A DNA stretch of 64,000 nucleotides. Source: a virus. This document shows positions 12,938-57,092 of this stretch, piece after piece. The notes below the pieces were generated by a model. That model searched no databases, had not been told where the DNA came from, and was given only the letters and a program-made list of their open reading frames with translations. The stretch's first letter is position 1, and each line of letters begins with the position of its first letter. The stretch spans positions 95,913 to 159,912 of the IMG/VR virus record IMGVR_UViG_3300042563_002067. One strand, written 5' to 3'. The translations under genes were made by a program, and so were the position numbers.

Positions 12938-14398
12938 TTATTCCAAATACTTCACATTAACAATCTGAAATTTGATTTGTTTTTTGTAGGTATTAATCAC
13001 CCCACTACTCTCAACTTTCAAATCAACATAGTATTCGTTTGGTATTTTATCCCTCGTATCGAACATAAAGTAATATTCATTTGGGGTTTGGTTAATTCTT
13101 GTCCATCCTTGAACTTGAACTTCTGTTTGCCCTTCTCTTACATACACTCGGTAATGAGCCTTTACGTTTGGAAGTAACTTATTTGTTGTGTAAGCTTGTT
13201 TAATTACCACGCCAACTTTTCTAATATCTGTGTTGTATATTTTTTCGTCTTGTTTTATTCCGTAAAAATCAAATCCATAAATCTTTGGGTCCTGAGTTGA
13301 CGTACCAATTTGAATTGAATGTTTTAACGGGTATAATACAAAGTCATTGGTTATATTAGGTAAAGAAAAACCATTTAATTTTAACCCTGACCAAATGTCA
13401 TAAAAAGAACAAGGTGTACGATACCCAATTAATGGTGGTATTGTAACTTCATAAACACCTTTGGTTCTCTGACATACATCTAAGTAAGGACTCATTAATC
13501 CTAAAATAGGAGTTCCATTGGAATCCGAAATAGACACTGACGGTAATTCATCTAAGTTGATAGGATTACCATCTTCGTATATGTATAAGTATAATTTATT
13601 GATTTTCCCTAACGAAAATGAGTTTCTGTCATCCTCAATCAAATCATCATAGTTTGTTTCTAAGAATGGTTCGTAGAAGGTTTGAGTATGTCTTGTAAAG
13701 AATTGAACTTCGTAGTTCTCAGTTAACCCCGTTAAGTTTTCAATTTGAGGTAAATAAGCAATTCCCCATCCTGTTACACCGGTTAAACCATTTGTTAAGA
13801 TATTATTAATTTCACTTGTCATATCAAAAGATATGTCTTCATTCCCGAATTGAAAATGTTGTGTGTCTACAATAGTTAACGCACTGTATGGTGTTGAACC
13901 TGAATTATTATTGTTATAGATACCCGGTGATGTCCACCCACTTAATGTTGTTGTTTGAATCCAATTTGACGGTCTTGTTGAGAAGTTTCTATCTGAATTA
14001 CTATAATCATATATTAAGTCAGCAAAGTCATATCCAACACCTTCGTCCCACATTTGGTTGTTAGGTATTCTAAATAATATTAAATCAAAGGAAGTTGCTC
14101 TCAATCTAGCTTGAGATGTTGTTGTATTTAACTCTTCAATATTAAAGGTTGATGTGTTAACCATTCTTAACGTATGTGTCATAGCATCAGGACAAGTTGT
14201 AGATATTGTTCCGTCAGATATTTTTTCTTGAAGAAGAGACATATCCAAATCAAAAATGAAACGGCTAAACCCATTTGGGTATTGTGAAGTCGCTAATGAA
14301 CCATAAAATAGTTCAGTCACAGGGTTTCTTCCGGTGTTTGTTAAACTATTTGATATGATTGTATTGTTTTTACTAAAATAGGAATTGTTAATTGACAT
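12938..14398 (-). CDS. Virion structural protein, beta-rich, possibly baseplate/fibre
   Basis: The start chosen is the ATG at 14398 (MSINNSYFSKNN); the five-codon-longer start would be TTG. The 486-residue product is beta-rich. Its first 230 residues resemble a DNRLRE-type (CBM96-like) module: FIFDLDMSLLQEKI, then a segment with DMTSEINNIL, GWGIAYLPQ and FFTRHTQTFYEPFLE. Such modules bind carbohydrates or stabilise fibres. The C-terminal half has several Ig-like strands. It follows the gp5-like gene, so a baseplate or fibre-connector role is likely. A late element lies 9 bp upstream. Confidence 0.55.
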   Translation of the reverse strand: MSINNSYFSKNNTIISNSLTNTGRNPVTELFYGSLATSQYPNGFSRFIFDLDMSLLQEKISDGTISTTCPDAMTHTLRMVNTSTFNIEELNTTTSQARLRATSFDLILFRIPNNQMWDEGVGYDFADLIYDYSNSDRNFSTRPSNWIQTTTLSGWTSPGIYNNNNSGSTPYSALTIVDTQHFQFGNEDISFDMTSEINNILTNGLTGVTGWGIAYLPQIENLTGLTENYEVQFFTRHTQTFYEPFLETNYDDLIEDDRNSFSLGKINKLYLYIYEDGNPINLDELPSVSISDSNGTPILGLMSPYLDVCQRTKGVYEVTIPPLIGYRTPCSFYDIWSGLKLNGFSLPNITNDFVLYPLKHSIQIGTSTQDPKIYGFDFYGIKQDEKIYNTDIRKVGVVIKQAYTTNKLLPNVKAHYRVYVREGQTEVQVQGWTRINQTPNEYYFMFDTRDKIPNEYYVDLKVESSGVINTYKKQIKFQIVNVKYLE

Positions 14399-14407
14399 AA
14401 AATCTTT

Positions 14408-14419
14408 TAACAATAAATA
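14408..14419 (-). promoter_or_regulatory. Putative late promoter TATTTATTGTTA
   Basis: Variant of the recurrent element on the minus strand, 9 bp before the ATG at 14398. Confidence 0.5.
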
Positions 14420-21130: not shown

Positions 21131-21131
21131 A

Positions 21132-22751: not shown

Positions 22752-22758
22752 TTTTTAA

Positions 22759-26882: not shown

Positions 26883-26884
26883 AA

Positions 26885-27754: not shown

Positions 27755-27758
27755 ATTA

Positions 27759-28532: not shown

Positions 28533-28538
28533 ATTTTA

Positions 28539-31199: not shown

Positions 31200-31900
31200 T
31201 ATTCTAATTCTTTTAATTTTTTTATTACGTCAATTAGTACAAGTACGTCTCGTTCACAGTAAGCGGTGATTTCAGGTAACATATTTTTGTTCCAATATGC
31301 GTCGTGAACTTTATCTCCGGTAACATCACCTTCCTTTGGTGATGGAACATCCATACAAGTACACATTAAGTCTAACGAACCAATTGCCGTATATGCTCCG
31401 TATTGCCAAATTTCTTTGGTATCGATAGCTTTAATCTCCCACGGTTTTGTGTCGTAAGATGGTAAAAGTGTTGGAGGCATTAATCCGTTGATAATCATTC
31501 GTTTTGCCAACATAGGGATATCAAAATTCTTAAGATTGTGTCCACATAGATAAAAATCTAATTTACCACAACGATTAAGTAATGTTTGACATTCTTTTAA
31601 TAGAACCTTTTCATCATCACCTGAAAACGATTGTTTTTTAATATCACCATTGTCCATAACAAAGGCAACACTAACACAAACAATTTTTGCAAACTCAGGA
31701 ACTAATGCGGCTCTTTTTTCAAAAACTTTATCGGCAGAAAATCCGGCATCTTCAGGAAATCGTTTTTGGAACCAATCAAAATATTTCTCAAATTGACTCG
31801 CAACATTAGGATTGTTAACTTTACACTCGGTATAGTTTTTACATCCACCAACAGTTTCTATATCAAGAAACAATATTTTGGTTAAAGGTATTTTTATCAT
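31199..31900 (-). CDS. DEDD-type 3'-5' exonuclease
   Basis: The 233-residue product is an RNase H-fold 3'-5' exonuclease similar to predicted PolB-like exonucleases of Bacteroidota. It has ILFLDIETVGG (motif I, DxE), LCGHNLKNFDIPML (motif II, with NxxxFD), and YCERDVLVLIDV (motif III, D after a conserved Arg). Possible roles are proofreading aid, DNA repair or host DNA recycling. It overlaps the dut gene by one base and follows the first glycosyltransferase of the block by 3 bp. Confidence 0.82.
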   Translation of the reverse strand: MIKIPLTKILFLDIETVGGCKNYTECKVNNPNVASQFEKYFDWFQKRFPEDAGFSADKVFEKRAALVPEFAKIVCVSVAFVMDNGDIKKQSFSGDDEKVLLKECQTLLNRCGKLDFYLCGHNLKNFDIPMLAKRMIINGLMPPTLLPSYDTKPWEIKAIDTKEIWQYGAYTAIGSLDLMCTCMDVPSPKEGDVTGDKVHDAYWNKNMLPEITAYCERDVLVLIDVIKKLKELE

Positions 31901-31903
31901 TTT

Positions 31904-35930: not shown

Positions 35931-38900
35931 GTGAGTCAAAATATAAATCAATTTCCGAAACCAAATTGGGGTGTAAAATTAGCGTTAGACGTTAGTGATA
36001 TATCATTATCTACTGATGAAAGAAACTATAAAGAAGAGGTTGTTTTTTCCCCTTATTTAATTGCCGAGACATATGGTAATAAATTACCTATTAATTTTGA
36101 TATTAATAACCCAATTTCTGCACAACAAATTGATTTATACTATAAAAACTATAACTTCAATAATCTTTTTGTTTCTAAAAACTATTACAACCCTGATAAT
36201 GTTGATTTATTTTGTTTAACCGCTAATACATCTTGTGATATTGGTTTAACCGGGATTGACAATGGGTTGGTGGAATCAATGACGGGACAGTCAATCACAT
36301 TTACAAACGGTATTAATGATTACACCAAATTCAATAGATTGTCTTTTGATAGACGATTAAAGTTATTTCAAGTTACAGGATACACTAGTTCTAATGTTAG
36401 ATTCTCAGGTTTTAATGACACAATATTATATGAGGTTGTTAGTAAAAATGATAGTGTAGGTAGATACCACGAACTTTATGGTGGATTCTATCAAGGGTTC
36501 TATAGATTATTTGGTTATGACTATAACATTTTTCCTGAAAGAATGAATAAAGGATGGTCGGTTGAAATGTTGTTAAAACCAAGATTAATTAACGAATATA
36601 CTCCATCGTTAGGTGAAACAACCTTAAATGAGATTTACCCAAACAACAAAGATATATTCTTTTACTTTGGGGCTCGTGCTGAAAATAAATTCTATCATTA
36701 CGCCGACGGACACCCAAGATGTTTTACCGGTTACACTAGAGTTACCTCAGAGGTCACAGGTTTAACAACTTGTGCTTGTTGTAATAATTCTGTTGTTAAT
36801 AGTAGATGTATCTATGTTTATCCACCTAGACCAACTAAAGCGGATTGTGATGGTTGTATTAGTTGTGGTTGGGAATATAAAATACACGATTGTCCATTAC
36901 CTACACCAACACCAACTCCAACACCAACTCCGATACCGGTCCCTTCAAATTGCGAACCAATCACGGCTTGTACTGCGGGATGTACTTGTGTACAATGTAT
37001 ATCTTGTAACGATTGTCAAACTTGTGATAATTGTAATGTAACTCCGGGTTCAGTTGAGAATACTTGTGAGAGTGACCCATTGTTTGATTCAATGTCAAAC
37101 GCATTATCATTTAAATTATGTGGTGACCCACATAACCCTCAAATTGGTGTTAGATTACTAAGATTTACCGGAGGATGTGAGACTAGTGGAAGTTGTTCAA
37201 CAACAGGAATTACTTACACAACAGGATACACTATAGACAATTATTGTACACCACCAATTTATCCTTATTGTTTAGAAGTTAATCCAAGTTATTTAGATAT
37301 GGAACATTGGTTTCATATTACAGCCGTTTGGGAGAGATATACTTGGTTAGACACTTGTGACTTATGGTATAGAGGGGGTATTGGAGATATCACGGAGAAA
37401 AAATATTTAGATGGATTAGCAAATAACTCAAAAGAGTTAATCACTGTTCCATATACACAAACTTGTGGGACTGACCCACAACAAATTGATTTGGTTAATC
37501 TAAATGAGAAATGGTTGATTGATAAGGATTTTAGAAAAGGAAGATTAAAAATATACATTAATGGAAGAATATTCCACACATTTCAAGATATTGAGGAAAT
37601 TATCCCAAGAGCATTATCCACAGATAAGGAAAAACAAGTCGGTGTTCCTTATAATATTTCGTGGGGTGGTGGAACCCAAGGTTTAAGAGAAAATTTAACT
37701 TTCTCGGCAATTACCGGAACAACTTATATCCAAGACCCGGAATGTTTACCAACTAACGATTTGTTAGGAACAACGTTTAGTGGATTAACGACTGATATAT
37801 TATTAGAACAAAATTTTGGTGGAACATTTGATGGGGGTATATCTCAATTCAGAATGTATGTGGAGCCATTATCATCAGACGAAGTTAAACATAATTTTAA
37901 ATTATTAAAAGATACGTTTGATATGTTTAATCCTGATTGCCCTGATTGTGGTGAAAATTTCTGTCCGGTTGATGATTTTACATATGTGATTAATGGTCCT
38001 ACTCCAACACCTACCAATACTCAAACACCAACACCCACATCAGAACCATTAAATTTAACCCTTTTCGTGGAATATACACCGGGTTCTATAATTGCGTATT
38101 ATAGATTAGTATTGAACCGTTCATATAGTGAAGAAATAAATGTTACTTTTGAAAATGTTCTAAATGTCTATAGTGGGACTCCGATTACAATATTTACTGG
38201 TGTTACGGTTAGTTTAGGGGATTTATCAGGACAAACTATTGTTACAATAAATGAAGATTATAACAACTATAATGGGGAACCATTTTTTAGTCAATTATCG
38301 GGAACTCCGAATGGAAGTACGTGGGAAATAATTTTAATCCAACCAACACCAACCCCAACACCAACTAATACCGTAACTCCAACTAATACCATAACACCAA
38401 CTAATACCGTAACTCCAACTAATACCATAACACCAACACAAACCTTAACTCCGACTAATACCATAACACCAACACAAACCTTAACTCCGACTAATACTCC
38501 AACTGAAACACCAACTCAAACCTTAACTGAAACTCCGACAAACACTCCAACTCCGACTATTACAGAAACTCCAACTAATACTCCAACAAATACCTTAACA
38601 CCAACTCCGACCCCTACACCAATTATACCATTAGTTTTAATACAAGGTTTATTTTCTTATGAAGGTTGCATACCTTGTGAGACTTCTTGTTTATTAGGTT
38701 TAATTACTTTATATACAGAACAATCGTGTGTTGATTTTATTACTGTTGGATGTCACTTGTATCTTGATTCAGAAGGAACAGAAAATGCTGAGAAAGGATA
38801 TTACAATAGATGGGATGGAACACCAGGACTATTGTATATCGATAAGGAAGGGTTAGTATTAAATATAGATGTATGCCCACAACCTACACCAACACCTACT

Positions 38901-41863: not shown

Positions 41864-42931
41864 ATGTCAAATACAATAACGATACAAAGTATAAATTATA
41901 GTGGGGAGGTTGCAAATATTTTGTTTAAACCTAACGGTGTTAATGTGGTTATAAATTTAGGTAATCAAATATTACCTTATGTGTTTAATCCGTCATTATT
42001 AACACCACCTCGTAATGTATATGGTGTTTACACTATATTAGTTGAGGGGGCGGATTGTCCTGTTATTATGAATGTTCCGGTTCCTACTCCTACACCAACA
42101 CCAACACCGACTGTTACAAACACTCAAACACCGACAGCTACACCAACACTAACCCCAACTCCTTCTTTCAACCCTTGTAAAGTTCCTACACAAACACCAA
42201 CAACCACCACTACACCAACTACCACACCGACCCCAACAATAACACCTACGGAGACTTGTACGAACCCATGTGGATGTTACGCCCCAATACCACCAACACC
42301 AACACAAACACCAACCAATACACACACTCCGACAAATACACCAACACCAACATTAACACCAACTCCGGTATATTATGCTAAGTTATTTATTGAACCTGTA
42401 AGTGGGTCTGAAAGTATTGGTCAATGGATGTATGATAGTGGTTCTAATTTCTTTGGTTTTACAAACAATACACAACCAACACAAGACCAAACACAATTTA
42501 ATATTGATATGAACAAATATGTTGATTTCAGTGGTTGGACTAGTGGTGAGTTCCCACCAATAATTAGTCAAACGGTTCCTCAAATTTCAGGAGGGCTCGA
42601 TAGTTTTGGTAACCCAATAGTTGCCTATAATTTCTTAACAACCGAAGTGTTGCAAGGTTATGTTGGTGGTTTAGGGTGGTATATTTGGATTATCCCAATT
42701 TCATTAACTAATAATGGAAGACAAACAATTATTGATTTTAATGAAAGTAATGATTCTAATTTATTAACAAATATATATACTGAAGATGCAATTAACACAT
42801 ATACATTTACCTACACCGGAACAACAATTCCACAAACAACATACCGAGTTTATACAACATATCCTAACATAATATTTAACATTACCGATAACAATAATAT
42901 TTATTTTAGAGGTAATACCATAACACAATAA
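41864..42931 (+). CDS. Fibre protein with Pro-Thr linker
   Basis: The 355-residue product starts with a beta-rich domain of about 70 residues (ITIQSINYSGEVANILFKP...) that is similar to the N terminus of the protein at 55989, suggesting a common attachment module. A Pro-Thr linker with Cys residues follows (about 75-165). The C-terminal domain (165-355) is beta-rich with aromatic residues and no recognised family. It follows the giant fibre gene by 14 bp and is followed by the next gene after one base, so the three are co-transcribed. Confidence 0.7.
   Translation: MSNTITIQSINYSGEVANILFKPNGVNVVINLGNQILPYVFNPSLLTPPRNVYGVYTILVEGADCPVIMNVPVPTPTPTPTPTVTNTQTPTATPTLTPTPSFNPCKVPTQTPTTTTTPTTTPTPTITPTETCTNPCGCYAPIPPTPTQTPTNTHTPTNTPTPTLTPTPVYYAKLFIEPVSGSESIGQWMYDSGSNFFGFTNNTQPTQDQTQFNIDMNKYVDFSGWTSGEFPPIISQTVPQISGGLDSFGNPIVAYNFLTTEVLQGYVGGLGWYIWIIPISLTNNGRQTIIDFNESNDSNLLTNIYTEDAINTYTFTYTGTTIPQTTYRVYTTYPNIIFNITDNNNIYFRGNTITQ
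42085..42370 (+). repeat. Pro-Thr linker of the second fibre protein
   Basis: Degenerate repeats (CCAACA, ACACCG, ACACAA) encoding Pro-Thr-Gln/Asn units, interrupted by a Cys-rich piece (ETCTNPCGCYAP). Confidence 0.75.
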
Positions 42932-42932
42932 T

Positions 42933-45900
42933 ATGAGTAATTTTTTAAATAACATACCAGTTTCACCTATAAAATCATTAGGTAATCCTTCTGTTCGTAA
43001 TAACGCAACATTTGGAACAAATTTCAGTATCCTTCAAACAGGGGGGTATATGGAAGTTTACAATTTAACCGATTTAGATTACATAATCCCTAACGGTTAT
43101 CAAGGTTTAGTTGAATATTCCGGTAATACGATTCCGGTTCAGTTACAAATTGGGACGGGTCAAATTTTTTCACCTAATGTGTTAACATTAAATTCTGACA
43201 ACATTTCTTCAGGTAGAAGAAAATTAGGGATGTTAGTTTATGTTTATGAAACCAAAAAAATATATCAATACAATATTGATAATTATGATACGTTATGGAA
43301 CAACGCTACCGGAGCAACAGGTCCGGGGGGTTCTACAGTAGTTATATCAAATTTTGGAACAACGGTTAAAAATAACTCACCTGAAGGTATTGTGTTAATT
43401 AATGCTTGGACGGCATCAACAATATCAGGTATTAATGGTTATGACGATACAAACGCTTCTTGGAGAGTTCTTCAAACATTTACCGGAGGAACAGTAACGG
43501 GAGCAACAATATTTACAGATGGTTTAACTGCAAACACAATATCGGCAACAACATATCAAAATTTGCCTGCAACACCTTTCTTACCATTATCAGGAGGAAC
43601 AGTGACCGGAGCAACAATATTTACAGATGGTTTAACTGCAAACACAATTTCCGCAACAACATATCAAAATTTGCCTGCAACACCTTTCTTACCATTATCA
43701 GGAGGAACAGTAACGGGAGCAACAATATTTACAGATGGTTTAACTGCAAACACAATTTCCGCAACAACATATCAAAATTTGCCTGCAACACCTTTCTTAC
43801 CATTATCAGGAGGAACAGTAACGGGAGCAACAATATTTACAGATGGTTTAACCGCAAACACAATTTCGGCAACAACATATTATAATTTACCAAAAGACGT
43901 TTTTATTACCGGAGGAACATATTTCCAAGGCAACACTATTTTTACAAATAGTACAGGTGGTACTTTTAATATTTTTGGACCATCTAATTATGACCCGGGA
44001 GTTATTAGTGGTAACACAGGTTGGTCAAGTAATAATGACGGGTCAATTAATTTACCGCAGATAACGGTTGCATTATACGACAACCCTAATTTTTTTGAGC
44101 CTCTTAAATTTTATTCAATTTCAAGCGGAACCACAGGTGTCGGGTCACTTCCGGCATTAATAAATAACGACACAAATTATATTATAATTGAATATAATAA
44201 TGGGGTTCCTAGATATAATGTTTTAGATAATGAGGGGACTGTTGATTTTAGTAGTATTCTATTATATATGATTGTCTATCGAACAAATAATTTTATTCAC
44301 GTTTTAGAGTTTGGTGATGAGGGTGCGGGTTTACCAAGTAAATTAAATGAACGTATTGTATATACAGATAGATTCGCGAGAGAAAGTGGTTGTTCGTTAG
44401 GTTTAAGTGGAAGTACAGGTATTGTAACCTTATCTTCAGGTGTTGTTTGGAACGCCACTAATCGTCAAATAGTTAATGACACAACTTCATTAGGACTTTT
44501 TTTTAGAAATTTCCATTCAGGCGGTACGTGGGTTTATACCACAACAGCAAATACAATTAATAATCTTTACTATGATAATGGTACTGATTTAGTATCAGCA
44601 ACCGCAGGAAAATATTTAGTTAATTGGTATTTTAGAGGACAAGAATTAAATGACCACTTATATGAGGTGGTTAGTGATGGACAATTCGATAATATATTAT
44701 TAGCGGACGCTTCAAGTGAACCAAATTTACCTGAACTAATTACATCACACACATTTTTGGTTGGTAGGATTATTATTGAGGTAAGTGCGACAACAGGTAT
44801 TACACAGTCGGCATTTTCATCAGTATTTCAACCAAGTGGTGCTCCCGGAGTTCACAATGATTTAACGAACATACAAGGAGGTCTTCCTAACCAATATTAT
44901 CATTTAGATTCAAACAAATATAATAATTTAGCATTAACAAATATTGATAATAATTTTAGTGCGGGACAAACATTTGCATCAGGGTTAACTGCAACTACAA
45001 TATCCGCAACAACATACCAAAATTTACCACCAACACCTTTCTTACCTTTATCAGGTGGAACGGTAACAGGTCAAGTAATACTAAAAAATAACTCGAGCCC
45101 ATTAATAATCACAACCGATAATTATAGTCCGGGGATATCAGGTAATATACTATTTTACGGGGATATCACGGGGTCAACTAATGGGAAGTCAATTAGTTCT
45201 AGGTCAAACGGGGGTGGAAATCCAGGGAATTTAATCCTTCAAGAATTAGGGAATGGTAATGTTGGTGTTAATACAAATGTTGTCAATCCAATATTAAATT
45301 TTAATTTAGATGTAAACGGTACTTTTGGTGCGACATCAGTATCAGCAACAACTTATTTTAATTTACCGGCAACACCTTTCTTACCATTATCAGGAGGAAC
45401 AGTGACAGGTGCAACAAACTTTACAGGAGGTTTAACCGCCACTACTATTTCAGCAACAACATACCAAAATTTACCACCAACACCTTTCTTACCATTATCA
45501 GGAGGAACAGTAACGGGAGCAACAATATTTACAGGAGGTTTAACGGCAAATACAATATCCGCAACAACAATAAGTGGGGGAACTGTAGTTCTTAACTCAA
45601 CCAATCTACCGTCAACACCGATTGCTGTTTCAGCATTTACTGATGATTATAATAGAGTTACTCTATCACCCGGAGGTTCACCATCGTTAACCTACACAAA
45701 TACAAATACAGGTGCTGGTAATGCAACAATAACGGCATCAACTTATTTAAATATTGCAAACGGAAATCCTGCGGGTCAGTCATACACTACGGTACCATTA
45801 TCCGGTTTTAACTCACCATTTAATCCAACATTATCATTAAATACTGTAAATGTTGAATGGTCATTTAATCTAAGAACAAATAGAAACACCATATTTCCAG

Positions 45901-46955
45901 GATTCTCAGCCGGTACCTATGGAGCTGCAGTTGTTTTAGCGGGTACTAGTGGAACACTTCTGAATACCGGTAACGGATACGCATTAGTTTATGGTGGAAC
46001 AGGAACAAGAAATTGGAGGTTAGTTAGATATACCAGTGGATTATTTGGTACTAGAACAGATATAATTTCAGGAGGTGTTTTCGCGGCAGGTACTAATTAT
46101 GTTAGTGCAAGAATTGTATATACGCCATCAACAAATACTTGGACATACTATTTCAGAGACGATGGTGCAGTTGCGTGGGGTGACCCTACAACCGTAACAA
46201 CATTAATTGGTAGTGCAGTTGATAGTACATACACGTCTAGTTTAATGAGTTCTCTTGGAGTATTCTTTAATTATTCAACCGCAGCAAATCAAAATTTACA
46301 ATTTGATAATTTAGTTGTTAAACTAAACTCACCTTCTGTATTTACTCCTCAAAGTTATTTAACGTTGAAAAATTACGCAAATACTGAAGTATTTGATGTT
46401 AAAGATGATGGTTCAGTAACATCGACCGGACTTATATCATCAACCGGGGGTATCTCAGGAACAACAATTAGTGGTGGAACATATTTTGGTAATGGTAGTG
46501 CACTTACGTTGGGTCAATTTGGTACGATGATAACAGGTTCTACCTCATTACTCGTTACCAATACAACTACATTACTAACATTAATACCGGGATTGACCAC
46601 TACAATAACTGTACCTACACAAACTATGGTTTGTATACAAACAAATGGTGGGGTTAATACCGTTGGAACCACAACAACTAGTGGTTCGGCAATTGATGTG
46701 GCATTAGTGGTGGATGGTATTATATTACCCAACGGTGGATATCAAAGAATGTATGCCGACAACCCAACGGGAAATGCTACGGTAGGAAACTGGGTCGCAA
46801 ATTGGAATATGTCGGTTATTATAACATTATCAGCAGGAATTCATACTGTTGAGGTTGATACAGCAACTGTTCAGGGTCAAAACGCCACGGTAAGTGGTGG
46901 TTTTGGAGCAATAAACCAAGGCACATTAACAATAATGATATTAAAAAATACATAA
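42933..46955 (+). CDS. Large trimeric-type tail fibre with tandem repeats
   Basis: The 1340-residue product has an N-terminal virion-attachment-like region (1-120), a short collagen-like TGATGPGG, then a 36-residue repeat of the form GGTVTGATIFTDGLTANTIS four times in tandem (about 185-316), with further copies later. A beta-rich central part follows. Near residues 900-1130 lies the SAFTDDYNR module shared with the giant fibre protein. The C-terminal 140 residues (LLVTNTTTLLTLIPGL... to LTIMIL) have a C1q/TNF-like jelly-roll pattern. Such repeats form beta-helical, trimeric fibre shafts. Probably a long side or tail fibre. Confidence 0.78.
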   Translation: MSNFLNNIPVSPIKSLGNPSVRNNATFGTNFSILQTGGYMEVYNLTDLDYIIPNGYQGLVEYSGNTIPVQLQIGTGQIFSPNVLTLNSDNISSGRRKLGMLVYVYETKKIYQYNIDNYDTLWNNATGATGPGGSTVVISNFGTTVKNNSPEGIVLINAWTASTISGINGYDDTNASWRVLQTFTGGTVTGATIFTDGLTANTISATTYQNLPATPFLPLSGGTVTGATIFTDGLTANTISATTYQNLPATPFLPLSGGTVTGATIFTDGLTANTISATTYQNLPATPFLPLSGGTVTGATIFTDGLTANTISATTYYNLPKDVFITGGTYFQGNTIFTNSTGGTFNIFGPSNYDPGVISGNTGWSSNNDGSINLPQITVALYDNPNFFEPLKFYSISSGTTGVGSLPALINNDTNYIIIEYNNGVPRYNVLDNEGTVDFSSILLYMIVYRTNNFIHVLEFGDEGAGLPSKLNERIVYTDRFARESGCSLGLSGSTGIVTLSSGVVWNATNRQIVNDTTSLGLFFRNFHSGGTWVYTTTANTINNLYYDNGTDLVSATAGKYLVNWYFRGQELNDHLYEVVSDGQFDNILLADASSEPNLPELITSHTFLVGRIIIEVSATTGITQSAFSSVFQPSGAPGVHNDLTNIQGGLPNQYYHLDSNKYNNLALTNIDNNFSAGQTFASGLTATTISATTYQNLPPTPFLPLSGGTVTGQVILKNNSSPLIITTDNYSPGISGNILFYGDITGSTNGKSISSRSNGGGNPGNLILQELGNGNVGVNTNVVNPILNFNLDVNGTFGATSVSATTYFNLPATPFLPLSGGTVTGATNFTGGLTATTISATTYQNLPPTPFLPLSGGTVTGATIFTGGLTANTISATTISGGTVVLNSTNLPSTPIAVSAFTDDYNRVTLSPGGSPSLTYTNTNTGAGNATITASTYLNIANGNPAGQSYTTVPLSGFNSPFNPTLSLNTVNVEWSFNLRTNRNTIFPGFSAGTYGAAVVLAGTSGTLLNTGNGYALVYGGTGTRNWRLVRYTSGLFGTRTDIISGGVFAAGTNYVSARIVYTPSTNTWTYYFRDDGAVAWGDPTTVTTLIGSAVDSTYTSSLMSSLGVFFNYSTAANQNLQFDNLVVKLNSPSVFTPQSYLTLKNYANTEVFDVKDDGSVTSTGLISSTGGISGTTISGGTYFGNGSALTLGQFGTMITGSTSLLVTNTTTLLTLIPGLTTTITVPTQTMVCIQTNGGVNTVGTTTTSGSAIDVALVVDGIILPNGGYQRMYADNPTGNATVGNWVANWNMSVIITLSAGIHTVEVDTATVQGQNATVSGGFGAINQGTLTIMILKNT
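43485..43880 (+). repeat. Tandem 108-bp repeat, four units, in fibre gene
   Basis: Units begin at 43485, 43593, 43701 and 43809 and encode a 36-residue repeat; the last is shorter because its tail diverges at about 43880. Units differ only at a few positions, implying recent expansion or gene conversion. Diverged copies recur near 44985-45065 and 45370-45550. Confidence 0.92.
45629..46325 (+). repeat. Fibre module, copy 2
   Basis: Second copy of the SAFTDDYNR module (copy 1 at 41145-41849). Most of the differences are synonymous, and the module is internal rather than C-terminal here. Confidence 0.85.
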
Positions 46956-47488: not shown

Positions 47489-50131
47489 ATGCAAGTAATT
47501 GAAATCACAAGTTTATCCGGACATTCCCCATATAACATATCAATATGTGATATAACAAGAACGTATTGTTATGTTGTTGCGACAGCTGTCTCATCAGTCC
47601 CGTTAATTCTAAACATACCAACAGAATTATCAGGTTCTCAAGAAGTCTTAGTGATAGTCACAGATAACATTGGTTGTGAAGAAATTCAATATCATTTTTG
47701 TGGTGAACCTGCTCCTAGTCAAACACCAACGACAACACCCACTCCCACACCAACAAATTCCGTTTGTAATTGTATCTCAATTGATAACCCTTTAGGGGTA
47801 ACATTAAATTTTGGGTATACTCAATGTGACGGGACATTAATCTATGGTGAGATTTACTCGGCAACCACATTATATGTTTGTGGTCAATTTCCGTATGGTG
47901 ATAGTGGATTAATAATTCAGGTTTCATCTAATATTTGTGTTGGGGATGTTTGCCCCGGACCAACACCTACACCAACCACCACTCCGACACCCACTCCAAC
48001 ATTACCACCGATAGTTGGTTATTTTGAGGATAGTTGTGATTCATCAAACCAATTTACCTTATCAAACATACCAATATCATTTAGTCCTCTGTCAGGAGCG
48101 TATTATATTGAAAGTAGTGGTTTCATTGGATGTGCCACTTATGTTGTTAGTTCATCTACAAACAATTTCTATTCATTTATTGCGATGGGTTCTCAACCGA
48201 GTATTTACCATTGTCAGAAAGCCAATTTTATCTATCCGTGTCCAACATCAACACCCACACCAACACCTACACCATCAATAACACCATCGGTAACTCCGAC
48301 TCATACACCTACACCAACTCCGACTCACACTCCCACACCAACAACACCTGTTAAGTATGTGTTGTTCCAAGTTCAATCTTGTTGTGCTAAAAAGATTATA
48401 AAATATATTATGTTACCGTCTAACTTTTTACCGGGAACTGCGGTTGTCAATTCATTTGGTGAGTGTTTAGAAATTATTAGTGTATCTAAAATTGTGACTT
48501 GGGTAACCGATTTTTGGGACCACGGAACAACATACATTTTTTGTGAGGTATGTGTTAAATATCAAACTTGTAATCCTGTTATACCACCATCCTTTATCTC
48601 TGTTTGGAGAACAACAACTATAAACGAATCAATTACATTACCATATGAAACTTCGGGGTTTTATTATGGAACAATTGATTGGGGTGATGGGGAAACCTCT
48701 AATAATATTTACGATAATAGAACACACACATATGTAACTCCGGGTGATTATATAATAACAATAACAGGGACATTAATTGGGTGGTCGTTTGGTGTTAACC
48801 CTATTAGTAGAAATAAAATTAGAGAAGTTCTACAGTGGGGTTGTTTACGTTTGGGTAATAGTGGTTCGTATTTTTCTAATTGTAATAATTTATCATTATC
48901 AAATGTTACCGATGTTTTAGATTTAACGGGAACAAATAATTTATCTTATACGTTTGAGAATTGTACTAATTTAACAACAGTCCCTTTTATAAATTCTTGG
49001 AACACATCAAACGTAACAAATATGCAAGGTATGTTTTTTGAGTGTCATAATTTTAATGACGACATATCAGGTTGGGATGTTAGTAATGTTACTGATATGG
49101 GAGCAATGTTTGATAACACTTATTTATTTAATCAGCCAATTGGTGTTTGGGATGTATCAAATGTTCAATCTATAAGTTATATGTTCTTACAAAATACCGT
49201 TTTTAACCAAAATTTAAGTTCTTGGAATGTTGGTAGTGTTACTAATATGAAAGGAACTTTTAATGGTTGCACATCATTTAATAACGGTGGTTCACCAATG
49301 ATTAGTGGTTGGACAACATATAATGTTACTGATATGGGTGATATGTTCCCTTTAACACCATTTAACCAACCAATTAATTCTTGGGATGTTAGTAGTGTTA
49401 CTAAAATGGATTATATGTTTTATCAATCAACATCATTTAACCAACCATTATCGGGATGGAATGTAAGTAATGTTACAGATATGAATTATATGTTTAGTTT
49501 ATCCCCATTTAATCAATATATTAATTCTTGGGATGTATCAAATGTTACAACTATGGAAGGTATGTTCTTTTTTAACACAATATTCAACCAAAACCTTAAT
49601 TCTTGGGATGTAAGTTCAGTAACTAATATGGATTATATGTTTTGGTTTGATTACGCATTTGATGGTAATATAACTAGTTGGGACACTTCTAATGTTACAA
49701 CAATGAGATTAATGTTTGCTACGTGTAGTATTTTTAATCAAAATATTAGTGGTTGGAACGTTGGTAATGTAACAAATATGCAACAGATGTTTAACGGAGC
49801 AACACAATTCAATCAACCTATTGGTTCTTGGAACGTTAGTAATGTGACTAATATGTCAAATATGTTTGGTTCAGTAGGATTTAATCAAAATATTGGTTCT
49901 TGGAACGTTACCGGCGTAACAAACTTTAATGGATTTATGAATGGTAAAACATTTAGTGATTACTCAACAACAAATCTTGACGCAATTTATAATGGATGGA
50001 GTTCTTTACCAACATTAACCTCTGGAATTAACATTAATTTTGGAACAATTAAATATACTGCCGGTAGTTCAGCCGGTAGAGCAATTCTAACCGGAACGTA
50101 TGGTTGGACAATTATTGATGGTGGAATATAA
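47489..50131 (+). CDS. BspA-type repeat adhesin with Pro-Thr linkers
   Basis: The 880-residue product has three Cys-rich beta-type domains (about 1-280) separated by Pro-Thr linkers. A PKD-like segment with IDWGDGET lies near residue 390, followed by a run of BspA/DUF285-type repeats (about 500-815, for example GWDVSNVTDMGAMF). It ends with the TTNLDAIYNGW cap and WTIIDGG terminus found also in the giant fibre protein. The layout, linker style and PKD segment are the same, so the two proteins are paralogues that probably bind different surface targets. It is the last fibre gene before the second glycosyltransferase cluster. Confidence 0.78.
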   Translation: MQVIEITSLSGHSPYNISICDITRTYCYVVATAVSSVPLILNIPTELSGSQEVLVIVTDNIGCEEIQYHFCGEPAPSQTPTTTPTPTPTNSVCNCISIDNPLGVTLNFGYTQCDGTLIYGEIYSATTLYVCGQFPYGDSGLIIQVSSNICVGDVCPGPTPTPTTTPTPTPTLPPIVGYFEDSCDSSNQFTLSNIPISFSPLSGAYYIESSGFIGCATYVVSSSTNNFYSFIAMGSQPSIYHCQKANFIYPCPTSTPTPTPTPSITPSVTPTHTPTPTPTHTPTPTTPVKYVLFQVQSCCAKKIIKYIMLPSNFLPGTAVVNSFGECLEIISVSKIVTWVTDFWDHGTTYIFCEVCVKYQTCNPVIPPSFISVWRTTTINESITLPYETSGFYYGTIDWGDGETSNNIYDNRTHTYVTPGDYIITITGTLIGWSFGVNPISRNKIREVLQWGCLRLGNSGSYFSNCNNLSLSNVTDVLDLTGTNNLSYTFENCTNLTTVPFINSWNTSNVTNMQGMFFECHNFNDDISGWDVSNVTDMGAMFDNTYLFNQPIGVWDVSNVQSISYMFLQNTVFNQNLSSWNVGSVTNMKGTFNGCTSFNNGGSPMISGWTTYNVTDMGDMFPLTPFNQPINSWDVSSVTKMDYMFYQSTSFNQPLSGWNVSNVTDMNYMFSLSPFNQYINSWDVSNVTTMEGMFFFNTIFNQNLNSWDVSSVTNMDYMFWFDYAFDGNITSWDTSNVTTMRLMFATCSIFNQNISGWNVGNVTNMQQMFNGATQFNQPIGSWNVSNVTNMSNMFGSVGFNQNIGSWNVTGVTNFNGFMNGKTFSDYSTTNLDAIYNGWSSLPTLTSGININFGTIKYTAGSSAGRAILTGTYGWTIIDGGI
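48990..49930 (+). repeat. BspA/DUF285-type repeats in the 880-residue adhesin
   Basis: About 13 units of roughly 24 residues with the core SWDVSNVTxMxxMFxxxxxFNQ. Units are diverged at DNA level. The array shares its cap with that of the giant fibre gene. Confidence 0.85.
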
Positions 50132-50184: not shown

Positions 50185-51432
50185 ATGAAGATATTTGTCC
50201 AAATTGCGTCCTATCGTGACCCCCAACTTATCCCAACAATTAAATCAATGTTGGAGAATGCAAAGAAACCTAAAAATTTAGTAATCGGTATTTGTCGTCA
50301 ATATCATCCGGAAGATGGTTTTGATAATTTATCAGAATTCAAAGGTGATAAACGTTTTAGAGTTATTGATGTTCTATACACCGAATCCAAAGGGGTTTGT
50401 TGGGCAAGAAACCAAGTTCAACAACTATATAAAGGTGAAGAATATACCTTACAAATCGATTCTCATATGAGATTTGAAAAAGATTGGGACGACACCCTAA
50501 TCAAAATGGTTAAACAACTTCAAAAGAAAGGATTTAAGAAACCTTTACTAACAGGTTATGTTTCTTCATTCGACCCGGACAATGACCCGGCAAGTAGAGT
50601 TAAAGAACCTTGGAGAATGGCTTTTGATAGATTTATACCGGAAGGTGCCGTCTTCTTTTTACCTGAAACAATTCCGGGGTGGGAAAATCTTAAAGAACCC
50701 GTTACCTCAAGATTTTACTCCGCCCATATGGCATTTACATTGGGACAATTTAGTGTCGAGGTTCAACACGACCCTGAATTCTATTTCCACGGAGAAGAAA
50801 TCTCAATCGCTGTTAGAGCATTTACACACGGATACGATTTATTTCACCCACACAAAACTGTTATTTGGCACGAATATACTCGTAAGGGTAGAACCAAACA
50901 ATGGGATGATGATAAAGAGTGGGGTAAGAAAAATGAATTATCTCATAAAAAGAATCGTCAACTATTTGGTATGGACGGTGAAGACGTTACAATGGACTTT
51001 AGTTTTTACGGGTTCGGAACTGAAAGAACTTTAAAAGATTATGAAATTTATTCAGGTCTTAAATTTTCAAATAGAGCTGTTCAACAATATACTTTAGATA
51101 AAAATTACGCACCTAATCCTCAAATATTTGAAACTGAGGAAGAATGGTTGGCAAGTTACGCTAGTATCTTTAAACATTGTATCGACATTGGATTTTCTCA
51201 AGTTCCTGAAAAAGATTACGAATTTTGGGTTGTTGCTTTCCACGATGAAAAAGATGAAACACTTTTTAGAAAAGATGCTGATATCAATGAGATTAATAAT
51301 ATGATGAGAGACCCTGATGGGTATTGTAAAGTTTGGAGAGATTTCCAAACTGTTCATAAACCAAAATACTGGGTTGTTTGGCCGTTTAGTAAGTCAAAAG
51401 GTTGGTGTGAAAGAATAACAGGTAATTTGTAA
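50185..51432 (+). CDS. GlcNAc-transferase-like glycosyltransferase (GT60-type)
   Basis: The 415-residue product resembles the GlcNAc family of Skp1-type hydroxyproline GlcNAc-transferases: KIFVQIASYRDPQLIPT at the N terminus, GVCWARNQVQ, QIDSHMRFEKDWD (DSH acidic motif about residues 92-94) and YFHGEEISIAVRAF, with HPHKTVIWHEYTR nearby. The family often modifies Pro- or Thr-rich proteins. It stands directly after the Pro-Thr-rich fibre genes on the same strand, which makes fibre glycosylation a reasonable inference. No membrane helix. Confidence 0.8.
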   Translation: MKIFVQIASYRDPQLIPTIKSMLENAKKPKNLVIGICRQYHPEDGFDNLSEFKGDKRFRVIDVLYTESKGVCWARNQVQQLYKGEEYTLQIDSHMRFEKDWDDTLIKMVKQLQKKGFKKPLLTGYVSSFDPDNDPASRVKEPWRMAFDRFIPEGAVFFLPETIPGWENLKEPVTSRFYSAHMAFTLGQFSVEVQHDPEFYFHGEEISIAVRAFTHGYDLFHPHKTVIWHEYTRKGRTKQWDDDKEWGKKNELSHKKNRQLFGMDGEDVTMDFSFYGFGTERTLKDYEIYSGLKFSNRAVQQYTLDKNYAPNPQIFETEEEWLASYASIFKHCIDIGFSQVPEKDYEFWVVAFHDEKDETLFRKDADINEINNMMRDPDGYCKVWRDFQTVHKPKYWVVWPFSKSKGWCERITGNL

Positions 51433-51436
51433 AAAT

Positions 51437-52144
51437 ATGGAATATGCGATAGCAACATTTTGTTATGGTGATAGATATTATGCCCAAACAAATAGAATGA
51501 TAGAATCATTTAAAGAATTTGAAGATAAACCAAATATTTTCATAGTTACAGATAATCCGGAATCAATTACTAAAGAAGATTATGTATTTGTTTCACATAT
51601 TAAGGAATATAATGAAAAATATGTGACATATAATACGAATTATTATGATTTTGATTTTTCAGTTAAAAGATTCTCAGTAAAATTTGCGTTAGATAGTGGA
51701 TTTACTAAAGTAATTTTAACAGATACGGATGTTATACCAAACAAATCATTATTCACAAAAAAAAATGTGTTAGAGTGTTTTATACCTAATAGTGTTGCCG
51801 GTCAAGTAACCTATCTTTTTGAAAAAGAGGTTGAGACAAATAGTATGTTAGGAAGACGATACTTACATTATGAAAATAAATTTGACGTTCAATATAATAA
51901 AGTGGATATGTGGATGCCGGAAGACTGCATTCAATTTTTAGATATTGATAAAGATAAATTTTATTCATTTTTAAAAACTTGGGATGAATGTATTGAGATT
52001 AAATATGTTGACAATTTATATAATATACCTGCGGGTAATATAGATGAAATGTGTTTCTCAGCATTACATAACGGTGTTGACTTAAAAAACAATTCTAGCA
52101 AACACATAAACTTATTAATCCCCAATCACGACAAATGGTATTAA
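51437..52144 (+). CDS. Glycosyltransferase (GT8-like)
   Basis: The 235-residue product has a GT-A layout with MEYAIATFCYGDRYYA at the start, NIFIVTDNPE, and a clear DxD motif in VILTDTDVIPN (about residues 95-105). The C-terminal part includes YNIPAGNIDEMCFSAL. Similar to glycogenin-type/GT8 and related enzymes. It is co-transcribed in the second cluster (4 bp after the upstream gene, overlapping the downstream gene by 10 bp). Confidence 0.65.
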   Translation: MEYAIATFCYGDRYYAQTNRMIESFKEFEDKPNIFIVTDNPESITKEDYVFVSHIKEYNEKYVTYNTNYYDFDFSVKRFSVKFALDSGFTKVILTDTDVIPNKSLFTKKNVLECFIPNSVAGQVTYLFEKEVETNSMLGRRYLHYENKFDVQYNKVDMWMPEDCIQFLDIDKDKFYSFLKTWDECIEIKYVDNLYNIPAGNIDEMCFSALHNGVDLKNNSSKHINLLIPNHDKWY

Positions 52145-52980
52145 AAATTATTACATCAGTTTATGAATTAAACTATGAAGATTCCAGAGGTGGTATGGTA
52201 TATAAATCATATCCATTATTAACCCAAACATTACGTAGTATAATTTTTGAAGGTTTTGAATATGTTATTTACACTAATCAATACACTTACGACAAATATC
52301 ATTTAGGTGAACAATTTAACCAACCAAATGTAACCATAAAGTTTCACGAATTAAATTCTGAAAATTACCTAAACAACATAAACCCAATTAGATTAGTTAA
52401 ATTTGCCGAAGGGGAAATTTACGATAGAATTTATTGTGTTAAAAATTATGTAGAAGTTATTTTTAATAAGTTACAATTTTTACTCGATGAGTGTGAAGAT
52501 AATAAAAATGTTGTGTGGATTGATTCCGGACTTTTTGGAACTAGTTGTCACGATAGATGGAGAGATTACATTAATGTTTTTGCCCATTCAGAATTATTTT
52601 TAAATAAAATAAATGAAAAAATATCTGAGAATGGTTTTATTTGTTTAAGAGGAGAATCAATTCAGGTTAATTACGAATTAAAAGCAGTTCTTGTTAATAT
52701 GTTTAACACAGACTTTAAGTTAGTTCCCGGAGGTATGTTTGGAGGGACAAGTGAGTCTATTCAAAAAGTTTTATCTAATTACTTATCGATTTTTGAAACA
52801 TATTACACAACAACAGGTAAATTAATTAGTGAACAAGAGGTTTTATCTATATTAACTCACACAAATGACGTTAAATTTTTTAATTTTGGTGATTGGTTAG
52901 ATTTACAAAGAGGGATATTGGACCTTATGGATTTATTGGATGTCGACAAATATAAAATTGATGAGAAATATGATGTCTAA
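52135..52980 (+). CDS. HtrL/WlaTC-like glycosyltransferase
   Basis: The 281-residue product resembles the WlaTC/HtrL family of putative glycosyltransferases: IITSVYELNYEDSRG at the start, a conserved VVWIDSGLFG (about residues 125-134) and LVPGGMFGGTSES with EQEVLSIL near the C terminus. Related proteins are found in lipooligosaccharide loci. The paired HtrL domain in the gene at 53536 suggests that the two enzymes have related acceptors. It overlaps both neighbouring genes. Confidence 0.65.
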   Translation: MVLKIITSVYELNYEDSRGGMVYKSYPLLTQTLRSIIFEGFEYVIYTNQYTYDKYHLGEQFNQPNVTIKFHELNSENYLNNINPIRLVKFAEGEIYDRIYCVKNYVEVIFNKLQFLLDECEDNKNVVWIDSGLFGTSCHDRWRDYINVFAHSELFLNKINEKISENGFICLRGESIQVNYELKAVLVNMFNTDFKLVPGGMFGGTSESIQKVLSNYLSIFETYYTTTGKLISEQEVLSILTHTNDVKFFNFGDWLDLQRGILDLMDLLDVDKYKIDEKYDV

Positions 52981-53539
52981 CTATTCTTTTAACATTGTTT
53001 GCACAACTATTGGAAGAGAATCATTACCAAGATTGATTGATAGTTTTAAAAATCAGTTAACCCAAAACGATTCTTTTACCATAATATCCGATACAAATCA
53101 CGAGTTTGTTCAAAATGTTTTATCTAATTATGATGTTAATTTTAAATTAAATCACATTATAAATGATGGGGATAGATTAGGTAAGTTTGGACACCCTTTA
53201 TTAAACAAACACATTAATAACCTTGACGGTGATTTTATTATGTTTGCGGACGACGATGATTATTATGTTGATGATGCCTTTGAGTATATAAGGGAAGTCG
53301 TTACAGAAAAAAAACTATACATTTTTAAACATAAATGGGGAGGAACAATTAATTGGACGACAAAAGAAGTAACACTAGGGAATATTGGTAAATGTATGGG
53401 TGTCATTCCTAATACTAAAAATTTACCAATGTTTCAAGAAGACGTATTCGGGGATGGGTTATTTTACGAAGACTTATCCAAAATTATGGAATATGAATTT
53501 GTTGATAAAATAATATATAAAATTAGAGATACAATATGA
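52973..53539 (+). CDS. Small glycosyltransferase (GT2-like)
   Basis: The start at 52973 (MSNYSFNIVCTT) is preferred to an earlier ATG at 52940, because it overlaps the preceding gene by only 8 bp. The 188-residue product has FNIVCTTIGRESLPRL, a basic GDRLGKFGHPLLNKH loop and the acidic motif FIMFADDDDYYVDD. These are hallmarks of a compact GT-A transferase. It overlaps the downstream gene by 4 bp. Confidence 0.7.
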   Translation: MSNYSFNIVCTTIGRESLPRLIDSFKNQLTQNDSFTIISDTNHEFVQNVLSNYDVNFKLNHIINDGDRLGKFGHPLLNKHINNLDGDFIMFADDDDYYVDDAFEYIREVVTEKKLYIFKHKWGGTINWTTKEVTLGNIGKCMGVIPNTKNLPMFQEDVFGDGLFYEDLSKIMEYEFVDKIIYKIRDTI

Positions 53540-55209
53540 GTAAAGTAACATTAGTGACAGGATTATGGGATATAGGTAGAGGAGACCTTCAAGAGGGTTG
53601 GTCTCGTTCATTCCAACATTATTTAGATAAATTTCAACAACTATTACAAGTTGATGTGAATATGATTATTTTTGGTGACGAAGAGTTAGAGAAATTTGTG
53701 TCAAACAATAGACGAAGTGAAAACACACAATTTGTTCGTAGAAGTTTGTCTTGGTTTAAAGACAACGATTTTTTTGATAAAATACAAAATATAAGAACAA
53801 ATCCGGATTGGTATAATCAAGTCGGATGGTTAACCGATTCAACTCAAGCTAAATTAGAGATGTATAACCCGTTGGTTATGTCAAAAATTTATCTCCTACA
53901 CGATGCTAAAATTTTAGATAGGTTTAATTCAGAATATATGTTTTGGATTGACGCTGGGTTAACAAATACAATTCACCCGGGATATTTTACACACGATAAG
54001 GTTTTAGATAAATTACCTCAATTAGTTAAAAATTTTCATTTTGTTTGTTTCCCTTATGAAACTAATTCTGAAATCCACGGATTTAAATATCCTGAATTAT
54101 GTGAATTAGCCGGAGAACCAGTTAAAATGGTTGCTCGAGCAGGTTTCTTCGGAGGAAGAAAAGATGTTATATCAGATATTAACGGTATCTATTACGGGTT
54201 AATGAATGATACATTATCACAAGGGTTAATGGGAACTGAAGAATCGTTATTTACAATTATGACATACAAATACCCTGAGTTGATTAGTTATTCAGAAATA
54301 GAAGATAATGGATTAATGGGTAAATTTTTTGAGGACTTAAAAAATAACACGACTCAAGTTAAAGAAAGTGTTTTACCAATTAAACCGAATAGTTTAGACA
54401 CATCCAAAGTTGGATTGTATGTTATAGCATTTAACTCACCTAAACAATTTGAGGTATTAATCCAATCTATGTTAGATTATGATTCTGACTTTATTGATAA
54501 ACCAAAAAAATTCTTATTAGATAACTCAACCGATTTATCAACAACACCAAGATATCTTGAACTATGTGAACAATATGGTTTTGAACATATTAAAAAAGAC
54601 AACATTGGTATTGTCGGGGGGAGAGTGTTTGTTGCTGAACATTTTGATGAAACTGATTTAGATTGTTATTGGTGGTTTGAAGACGATATGGCTTTTTATC
54701 CAAAAAAAGGTGAGGTATGTAGAAATGGGTTCCCTCGTTTTGTTGATAAATTATATCAAAAATCAGTAGAGATTGTTAAAAAAGAAAATTTTGATTTTCT
54801 TAAATTAAATTTTAGTGAATTTTTTGGTGATAATAGTGTTCAATGGAGTTGGTATAATGTCCCTCAAGATTTTAGACAATCTCATTGGCCGAATAACCCT
54901 AAATTACCGGTTCAAGGACTAGACCCTAATTCACCTAAAACACAATTTAAGGAGATAAGGACATATAAAGGGTTATCATATGCGACAGGGGAAGTTTATT
55001 TATGTAATTGGCCGATAATATTAACAAGAGAAGGTAACTATAAGTGTTATTTAGAAACAAAATGGGCTCACCCATTTGAACAGACGTTAATGTCTTATTG
55101 TTATCAAGAAACTGTTAAAGGAAAAATTAATCCGGGATTATTGTTATTAACACCAACGGAACACGATAGATTTGAACATTATGACGGTTCATTAAGAAAA
55201 GAAAGTTAA
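53536..55209 (+). CDS. Two-domain glycosyltransferase: HtrL-like plus GT-A
   Basis: The 557-residue product fuses an HtrL/WlaTC-type domain (residues about 1-260, with TLVTGLWDIGRGD and FWIDAGLTNTIHPGY) to a GT-A type domain (about 290-550, with GLYVIAFNSPKQF, a KKFLLDNSTD strand and WWFEDDMAFYP containing the acidic motif). The fusion could add two sugars in succession. It is the last gene of the second glycosyltransferase cluster, and a late element follows for the next gene. Confidence 0.75.
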   Translation: MSKVTLVTGLWDIGRGDLQEGWSRSFQHYLDKFQQLLQVDVNMIIFGDEELEKFVSNNRRSENTQFVRRSLSWFKDNDFFDKIQNIRTNPDWYNQVGWLTDSTQAKLEMYNPLVMSKIYLLHDAKILDRFNSEYMFWIDAGLTNTIHPGYFTHDKVLDKLPQLVKNFHFVCFPYETNSEIHGFKYPELCELAGEPVKMVARAGFFGGRKDVISDINGIYYGLMNDTLSQGLMGTEESLFTIMTYKYPELISYSEIEDNGLMGKFFEDLKNNTTQVKESVLPIKPNSLDTSKVGLYVIAFNSPKQFEVLIQSMLDYDSDFIDKPKKFLLDNSTDLSTTPRYLELCEQYGFEHIKKDNIGIVGGRVFVAEHFDETDLDCYWWFEDDMAFYPKKGEVCRNGFPRFVDKLYQKSVEIVKKENFDFLKLNFSEFFGDNSVQWSWYNVPQDFRQSHWPNNPKLPVQGLDPNSPKTQFKEIRTYKGLSYATGEVYLCNWPIILTREGNYKCYLETKWAHPFEQTLMSYCYQETVKGKINPGLLLLTPTEHDRFEHYDGSLRKES

Positions 55210-55988: not shown

Positions 55989-57062
55989 ATGTCAATAGGT
56001 TTAAGAATTATCAGTAATAATTTAATAGGTAAAACCGCGTCTGTTACCTTTACTCCAGCATCCGGAGGGACACCACAAAATTTAGGTATTCAGACAATAC
56101 CATTTAATAATATTACACCATATCCATATGGTAATTATGATATTAATGTTTTAGAATATAACTATAGTTACAATTTTAATGTGCCGGCGCCGGCTCCATT
56201 ACAATCAGGTTATACAACTACCCTTAGAGGTATTGTTAATCCGGAAGGTGGTTTAGCATATTCTTCGTCAACGTTATCGGAATCTTGGGGTGAGTATACA
56301 AAAGGATTTATTACTAGTAAAGGTTATTCCCCTGATGATATTATTTACGCCGAAGGTATATGTTCTGATGATGTTGATGGTCCCGTATTTACAGGTGTTG
56401 ATAATATTGGACAATTTCCAACTTCTATGAACACATTTCTTGGTCCGTTTATGTCAGGTGGTTTAGCAGGGTTCCCATTTGTTGGAACTGTTGGGTTAGG
56501 TGCTTGGGCTAGCCACATTACAAGTGGCGGAACTTTATTTATAACAAGTACACCTCATATTGGTGTAACAATAGATGGTCGTGCGGGAAGAATGTTAAGA
56601 AAAGGTAAACCAGATAGTATCACAGATAATACTTGTGGAGCTGTGGCGGGAGCCATAGGTGAGGTATTAACAACTTGGAGTGCTACCACACCAACATTTA
56701 GTACTTATTCAGGTTCAGGAGATTATGAATTTTATAAGTTAGTTGATATCTTATGGCCGTTTCGTGGTACATTATCAGGATTTACGGGAACATCGGAAGA
56801 AATATATAATAAACAAATGATTTTTTCAACAAATAAAATTAAAGAAAACGCATTTACTTATTTATTTGCTAATTTATCGGGAGCAACAAATAGTGTGTTA
56901 TTATCAAGACCTTCTACTGAGATATTTTTCACTAGTGGTGTTTTTATTAATACAGATTATGGATATGAATCATACGTTAATATCGACCAATTTTGGAAAT
57001 ATAGTATTAACGGTGGTTGGGTTGACCTAACATCAGAATATGTTTCAGGATTACCATTATAA
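55989..57062 (+). CDS. Virion-type protein with LCIB-like (beta-carbonic-anhydrase-type) domain
   Basis: The 357-residue product has an N-terminal beta domain (1-70) like that of the fibre protein at 41864, ending in a short Pro-Ala linker. Residues about 75-315 resemble the LCIB/LCIC family: a conserved GICSDDVDG segment (C125), then FMSGGLAGFPFVGTVGLGA (154-172), TPHIGV (H190) and NTCGAVAGAI (C216). LCIB proteins bind zinc through Cys-His-Cys, and all three candidate ligands are present. The family includes active beta-type carbonic anhydrases in algae and bacteria. A late promoter and terminator frame it as a single-gene transcript. Whether it is catalytic or only a fold is unknown. Confidence 0.72.
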   Translation: MSIGLRIISNNLIGKTASVTFTPASGGTPQNLGIQTIPFNNITPYPYGNYDINVLEYNYSYNFNVPAPAPLQSGYTTTLRGIVNPEGGLAYSSSTLSESWGEYTKGFITSKGYSPDDIIYAEGICSDDVDGPVFTGVDNIGQFPTSMNTFLGPFMSGGLAGFPFVGTVGLGAWASHITSGGTLFITSTPHIGVTIDGRAGRMLRKGKPDSITDNTCGAVAGAIGEVLTTWSATTPTFSTYSGSGDYEFYKLVDILWPFRGTLSGFTGTSEEIYNKQMIFSTNKIKENAFTYLFANLSGATNSVLLSRPSTEIFFTSGVFINTDYGYESYVNIDQFWKYSINGGWVDLTSEYVSGLPL

Positions 57063-57065: not shown

Positions 57066-57092
57066 AAAAAGACCTTCGGGTCTTTTTTTTTT
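57066..57092 (+). terminator. Factor-independent terminator with UUCG loop
   Basis: AAAAGACC / GGTCTTTT stem closed by a C(TTCG)G tetraloop, then a long T run. It ends the LCIB-like gene. Confidence 0.9.

Follow-up and report, generated by a model that had tools for sequence, protein, structure and literature searches.

A putatively virion-displayed carbonic-anhydrase domain of the LCIB family in tailed phages

The locus raises the question of why a phage gene that ends a run of fibre-type genes should encode what looks like an enzyme of inorganic carbon chemistry, and whether such an enzyme would act on the virus particle. We analysed a stretch of 64,000 nucleotides (the window) drawn from a 159.9-kb virus record. 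The capsid gene of the window is of the T4 Gp23 type (PF07068, E 1.3e-74); among its relatives are those of Flavobacterium phage immuto and of cyanophages. The gene in question (Table 1) closes a plus-strand run of fibre-type and glycosyltransferase genes and is followed closely by a family B DNA polymerase gene.

An LCIB-family domain in a phage gene

The open reading frame starts with ATG and lies exactly where the original prediction, made from the sequence alone, had placed it; its reverse strand contains no coherent frame. That prediction had assigned an LCIB-like carbonic-anhydrase domain to the product, and the lack of an LCIB match in a profile search would have refuted it. The Pfam search returned a single match, PF18599 (LCIB_C_CA), at 95.2 bits, which clears the curated cut-off of 25 bits for this family. 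A sequence search of the PDB at E ≤ 1 retrieved LCIB-family chains only, namely 6kfs (1.2e-16), PtLCIB4 (6e-13) and, weakly, CrLCIB and CrLCIC. A profile combining phage and cellular homologues matched 6kfs at 1.6e-40 and CrLCIB/CrLCIC at about 1e-10.

The fold was modelled with AlphaFold2 without templates (mean pLDDT 74.9). The pLDDT was about 80-96 over most of the LCIB part and below 50 at residues 128-140 and 153-163. Foldseek comparison of the model with the PDB gave solely LCIB-family structures at E ≤ 0.001, with TM scores of 0.69-0.84 by target, including 6kfs (E 1.8e-14) and PtLCIB4 (2.2e-14). A fold search of the viral structure library BFVD gave no match at E ≤ 0.001. Pfam, PDB sequence and fold agree that the domain is a true member of the LCIB family, and this part of the prediction held. 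The claimed Cys-His-Cys zinc set (C125, H190 and C216) is correctly numbered, its residues aligning with the Cys, His and Cys columns of the family, and the claimed glycine-rich GGLAGFPF strand is present at residues 157-164. The model has the LCIB-type fold, but the zinc-site loops are of low confidence and no distances between the zinc ligands were obtained.

Table 1. Positions of the gene, its parts and associated features in the window
Feature	Position	Strand	Basis
LCIB-domain virion-type protein, 357 aa	55989..57062	+	ORF; Pfam PF18599 E 4.6e-27
N-terminal module, residues 1-70, common to fibre-type proteins	55989..56198	+	profile matches
LCIB_C_CA domain, residues 99-332	56283..56984	+	Pfam envelope; fold match to 6kfs, PtLCIB4
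C125, presumed zinc ligand	56361..56363	+	invariant: 63/63 phage, 32/32 cellular homologues
H190, presumed zinc ligand	56556..56558	+	invariant: 64 phage, 32 cellular homologues
C216, presumed zinc ligand	56634..56636	+	invariant: 64 phage, 32 cellular homologues
TATTTATAAATA element, candidate T4-type late promoter, 26 nt before the LCIB start codon	55951..55962	+	enrichment and position
Intrinsic terminator directly after the LCIB gene (9-bp stem, TTCG loop, T run)	57066..57087	+	sequence
TPT-repeat fibre-type protein, same N-terminal module as the LCIB protein	41864..42931	+	profile
Tail/baseplate-block protein without insert; the L073 homologue has LCIB after the residue matching window residue 117	12938..14413	-	62-63% identity on both sides

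Active-site conservation, selection and relatives

Conservation was examined in an alignment of 64 phage and 32 cellular sequences, invariance being counted where a column was present. C125, D127, H176, H190, R204 and C216 showed no variation across the 63-64 phage homologues that have the column and the 32 cellular homologues. These six are among only 16 of the 222 well-filled columns that are identical across all phage and cellular sequences, at a mean phage-cell identity of ~25% and a phage-phage identity of at least 31%. The mutation sites of two PtLCIB4 PDB entries, 5b60 (S47R) and 5b5z (H88A), correspond in the printed alignments to S126 and H176 of the window protein; H176 is invariant, and the S126 position is Ser in 60 phage proteins and Ala in three. 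The phage proteins also have features of their own: the Arg after CSDEV (CSDEVxR) of many cellular and algal LCIBs is replaced by Gly or Ala, extra residues lie between C125 and the GGLAG segment, and a W-x-D tail is conserved.

Close phage pairs had a dN of 0.03-0.12 versus a dS of 0.40-0.57 (dN/dS ~0.09-0.2), indicating that the phage LCIB protein is under purifying selection. The original prediction had offered a scaffold, a surface enzyme or a pH/CO2 effect as possible roles; since the conservation of the active site is unbroken, the enzyme is favoured over the scaffold. Taken together, conservation and selection are more in line with an enzyme that has been retained than with a fold reused as a scaffold, with activity itself inferred; activity, presence in the virion and benefit to the phage have not been measured.

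At least 101 IMG/VR contigs encode a relative with the LCIB domain, and the domain is present in both T4-like and crAss-like phages. The architecture is preserved in full in orthologues of 89-94% and 54-56% identity, and more distant relatives (40-47% identity) keep the LCIB domain alone, behind other N-termini. In the tree, all phage copies fell on one side of a branch with 100/100 support that separates them from cellular LCIBs of Bacteroidota and planctomycetes, the stem of the phage clade measuring 2.7 substitutions/site. Searching viral contigs with cellular LCIB patterns revealed neither relatives nor free-standing LCIBs of cellular type, and searching GTDB genomes with patterns from the phage alignment revealed no relatives. 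A shorter motif found three cellular LCIBs in GTDB genomes, which were used as an outgroup and led to a wider survey; there, LCIB occurred as a free protein of 230-290 aa in 35 of the 396 genomes of the phylum of G001 (a Chitinophagaceae MAG locus). A single clade of single origin is likely for the phage copies but is not proven. Because the cellular patterns found no viral relatives, the single viral clade may partly reflect the patterns used, which favour conserved forms; the cellular sample was also narrow and the branch is long.

One Gp23-type contig (L105, 202.9 kb) contains two tandem LCIB genes, at 5593-6801 and 6805-7662. The second copy, whose N-terminal extension is minimal, sits on the longest branch of all phage copies.

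Structural contexts and expression signals

The link to the virion rests on evidence independent of the window, and location on the particle is inferred from it, not shown. What is shown is module exchange: the LCIB domain occurs with at least six different N-terminal modules and has moved among at least six structural contexts in two phage groups. A profile built from the N-termini of the LCIB proteins alone matched a relative of the window's TPT-repeat protein on another contig (L022, 12483-12722) at E 2e-5. After iteration, with the L022 sequence already included, the profile matched the window's TPT-repeat protein itself at E 1.2e-13 and also TPT-repeat proteins on two further contigs (L068 and L025). 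The direct single-pair comparison of the two window N-termini is weak (E 0.001), and the claim is carried by the profile evidence.

A second context, seen in three contigs (L073, L075 and the fragment L175), is a protein of ~775 aa that is interrupted by the LCIB domain. The whole domain is inserted in the L073 gene at 5668-8004, and the flanks match the window's tail/baseplate-block protein at 63% and 62% identity. Neither that window copy nor any of the 80 best-matching homologues of the host protein in L073 has the insert. The gene preceding the insert-bearing gene is conserved between the window and L073 (40%). The tail/baseplate label of this block is based on gene order and a weak tape-measure match adjoining it, the host protein itself having no family match. 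Ig-like Foldseek matches of the host-protein family came from a poor model (pLDDT 55.8) and were not trusted.

Other copies also lie among structural genes. The first 60 aa of the L088 LCIB protein share 83% identity with the N-terminus of another protein, whose gene lies immediately before the separate LCIB gene of L098; both loci run into tail sheath and tail tube genes (in L088, sheath 7.4e-71 and tube 7.9e-24). In L091, L096 and L102 the LCIB gene lies amid capsid and other structural genes; the capsid protein of this lineage resembles those of the crAss-like phages cr10_1 and cr6_1 and of Cellulophaga phi4:1, and no Gp23 was found in the L091 contig. The LCIB gene is close to the major-head-protein gene in L091, L096 and L103, and in L103 the order is a Gp23-type capsid gene, one intervening gene, the LCIB gene and fibre-like genes.

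Upstream of the window's LCIB gene lies TATTTATAAATA, a 12-mer palindrome with five copies in the window versus 0.08 expected (positions 1674, 3168, 12921, 55225 and 55951) and further copies at genome positions 8984 and 73008 of G000. For six of the seven genome-wide copies, a visible gene start follows within about 45 nt; the remaining copy (12921) lies some 30 nt upstream of ORF 12286-12891 on the minus strand. A gene (3191) that is preceded by one of the copies was read from its sequence, without a family match, as a gp21-like prohead protease. The palindrome contains TATAAATA, which we take to be the T4 late promoter consensus; for this reason late expression of the LCIB gene is inferred to be likely. 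TATAAATA alone is only mildly enriched (24 versus 15.6), the solid signal being the 12-mer, and TATTTATAAATA is a possible late promoter of this phage group. The original prediction had described a late virion-type protein whose N terminus resembles that of a local fibre protein. The resemblance held on the profile evidence, and the wider description is supported by the fibre N-terminal module, the other structural fusions and the insertion, the structural neighbourhoods and the upstream palindrome.

The fibre-type genes of the window have features of their own. Those at 35931-41849 and 47489-50131 (both plus strand) encode long proteins with DUF285/BspA-like repeats and TPT-repeat linkers; they have the same PHROG families in common, and the first matches PF03382 at E 5.9e-97. 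The fibre-type protein encoded at 42933-46955 (plus strand) contains several near-identical repeats of ~38 aa (PATPFLPLSGGTVTGATIFTDGLTANTISATTYQNL), an array that probably changes in copy number. Many sugar-nucleotide and glycosyltransferase-type genes, including epimerase, DegT aminotransferase, PF11397 GlcNAc transferase and HtrL_YibB types, lie between structural genes at 19255-33124 (minus strand) and 50185-55209 (plus strand).

Interpretation, rival readings and known systems

The reading that we prefer, with moderate confidence, is that the protein is a zinc carbonic-anhydrase module that is displayed on the virion, is probably active and works at the cell surface. Computation shows the family, the fold, the invariant residues, purifying selection, module exchange and the structural gene context; presence on the particle, zinc, catalysis and the infection step that benefits are inferred. 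The gene would be expressed late and its product attached to the virion; the first ~70 residues would form an exchangeable anchor that recurs in several fibre-type proteins of the phage group. The remainder would be a complete LCIB-type carbonic-anhydrase domain (beta-fold, also called theta) that very probably retains both zinc binding via C125, H190 and C216 and the ability to hydrate CO2; D127, H176 and R204 would be additional active-site residues. Carried on a fibre or the baseplate, the domain would work extracellularly, at the surface of the host, where it would convert CO2 and bicarbonate and alter the local pH during host contact. Against this reading, it is not obvious what a phage would gain from extracellular CO2 hydration, the model is of low confidence in parts of the active-site loops, and the CSDEVxR Arg is replaced by Gly or Ala. 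Some LCIB-family members are, moreover, reported to be inactive in vitro (CrLCIB work).

The strongest rival, which we consider unlikely, is a binding-only module: the LCIB fold would serve as a receptor-binding or decoration domain on fibres, with a structural zinc and unused catalysis. Ig and lectin folds carried by phages serve in this way, and the LCIB domain sits, on swapped anchors, where such modules usually sit; the rest of the domain is also strongly diverged, as the length of the stem indicates. However, if the domain were merely a scaffold, there would be no need for H176, D127 and R204 to stay constant across all 63-64 phage proteins, as they do in the enzymes. The hypervariability of a receptor tip is also missing, as the phage proteins keep at least 31% identity to one another and the window's close relatives have a dN/dS of ~0.1.

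Less probable still is a virion-borne hydrolase with the LCIB fold and another substrate, either COS/CS2 as in beta-CA relatives or a surface-polysaccharide ester. Carbonic anhydrases have side esterase activity. Tail fibres with polysaccharide-deacetylating activity (PMC9569702) offer a comparison, beta-CA-like COS hydrolases are cited in PMC13098186, and the missing Arg and the residues added between C125 and the GGLAG segment could alter the pocket. All six core residues are nevertheless those of the CO2 enzymes, and we regard this reading as very unlikely.

An intracellular late carbonic anhydrase, an auxiliary metabolic gene that supplies bicarbonate or controls pH in phage production and has an incidental N-terminal extension, is supported by the metabolic nature of the enzyme and by the free cellular protein in the surveyed phylum, but is likewise very unlikely. 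Among phage copies with an intact start, it is mainly the second L105 copy that lacks a sizeable N-terminal extension; additional modules are present in the others, and one copy interrupts a protein of the structural block. The neighbours are structural, the clade is separate, free-standing copies of cellular type were not found in viral contigs, and the criterion for such a gene (a free-standing host-like enzyme in a non-structural context) is not met.

A bolder form of the preferred, virion-displayed reading, which we judge slightly less likely than not, is that one phage-borne lineage of active carbonic anhydrases is carried on the virions of at least two unrelated groups of tailed phages (T4-like and crAss-like) on many exchangeable anchors, with CO2/bicarbonate chemistry at the host surface as an infection step.

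No previous description of a virus particle bearing such an enzyme came to light, although this does not prove that none exists. A tblastn search of the 50,697 INPHARED records with four LCIB proteins (three phage, one cellular) gave no match, and neither PHROGs nor NCBIfam had a match for the window protein. A literature search for LCIB or carbonic anhydrase together with phage or virion, limited to titles and abstract starts and leaving subscription literature mostly uncovered, revealed no such case, and viruses and phages are absent from the main text of a 2026 survey of microbial carbonic anhydrases (PMC13098186). The findings add a phage clade, absent from PHROG, NCBIfam and BFVD, to an LCIB family known until now from bacteria and from carbon concentration in algae. 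Known phage-particle enzymes mostly degrade polymers or modify surface glycans, and an enzyme on the virion that is expected to act on dissolved CO2/bicarbonate would, if confirmed, be a new kind of action. The active site is widespread and strictly conserved, so the idea can be tested with one protein and a standard assay.

Among known systems, the phage proteins resemble modular receptor-binding and tail-fibre proteins with C-terminal enzymes (depolymerases, deacetylases) in that an N-terminal anchor is swapped against C-terminal modules and the gene adjoins fibre or tail genes; they differ in that the putative enzymatic module is a carbonic-anhydrase domain, for which the literature searched held no precedent. 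As with Ig-like and other accessory domains inserted in phage structural proteins, a whole foreign domain appears at one point of a conserved protein, but here it is of a metalloenzyme family and not a binding sandwich, and its insertion was found in three contigs, with none among the 80 best host-protein homologues. A further likeness is to the LCIB/LCIC family itself (PF18599; PtLCIB4, CrLCIB, CrLCIC, 6kfs and 9vzj; theta/beta-type carbonic anhydrases), with which the phage proteins share the fold (TM up to 0.84), the zinc-site residues, the His at the PtLCIB4 H88 position, the GGLAG[FY]PF segment and the C-terminal GxxINTD strand. They differ from it in their ~25% identity to the sampled cellular proteins and their separate clade with 100/100 support, in the extra residues between C125 and GGLAG, the absent CSDEVxR arginine and the conserved W-x-D tail, and in being fused to or inserted in proteins of virion type.
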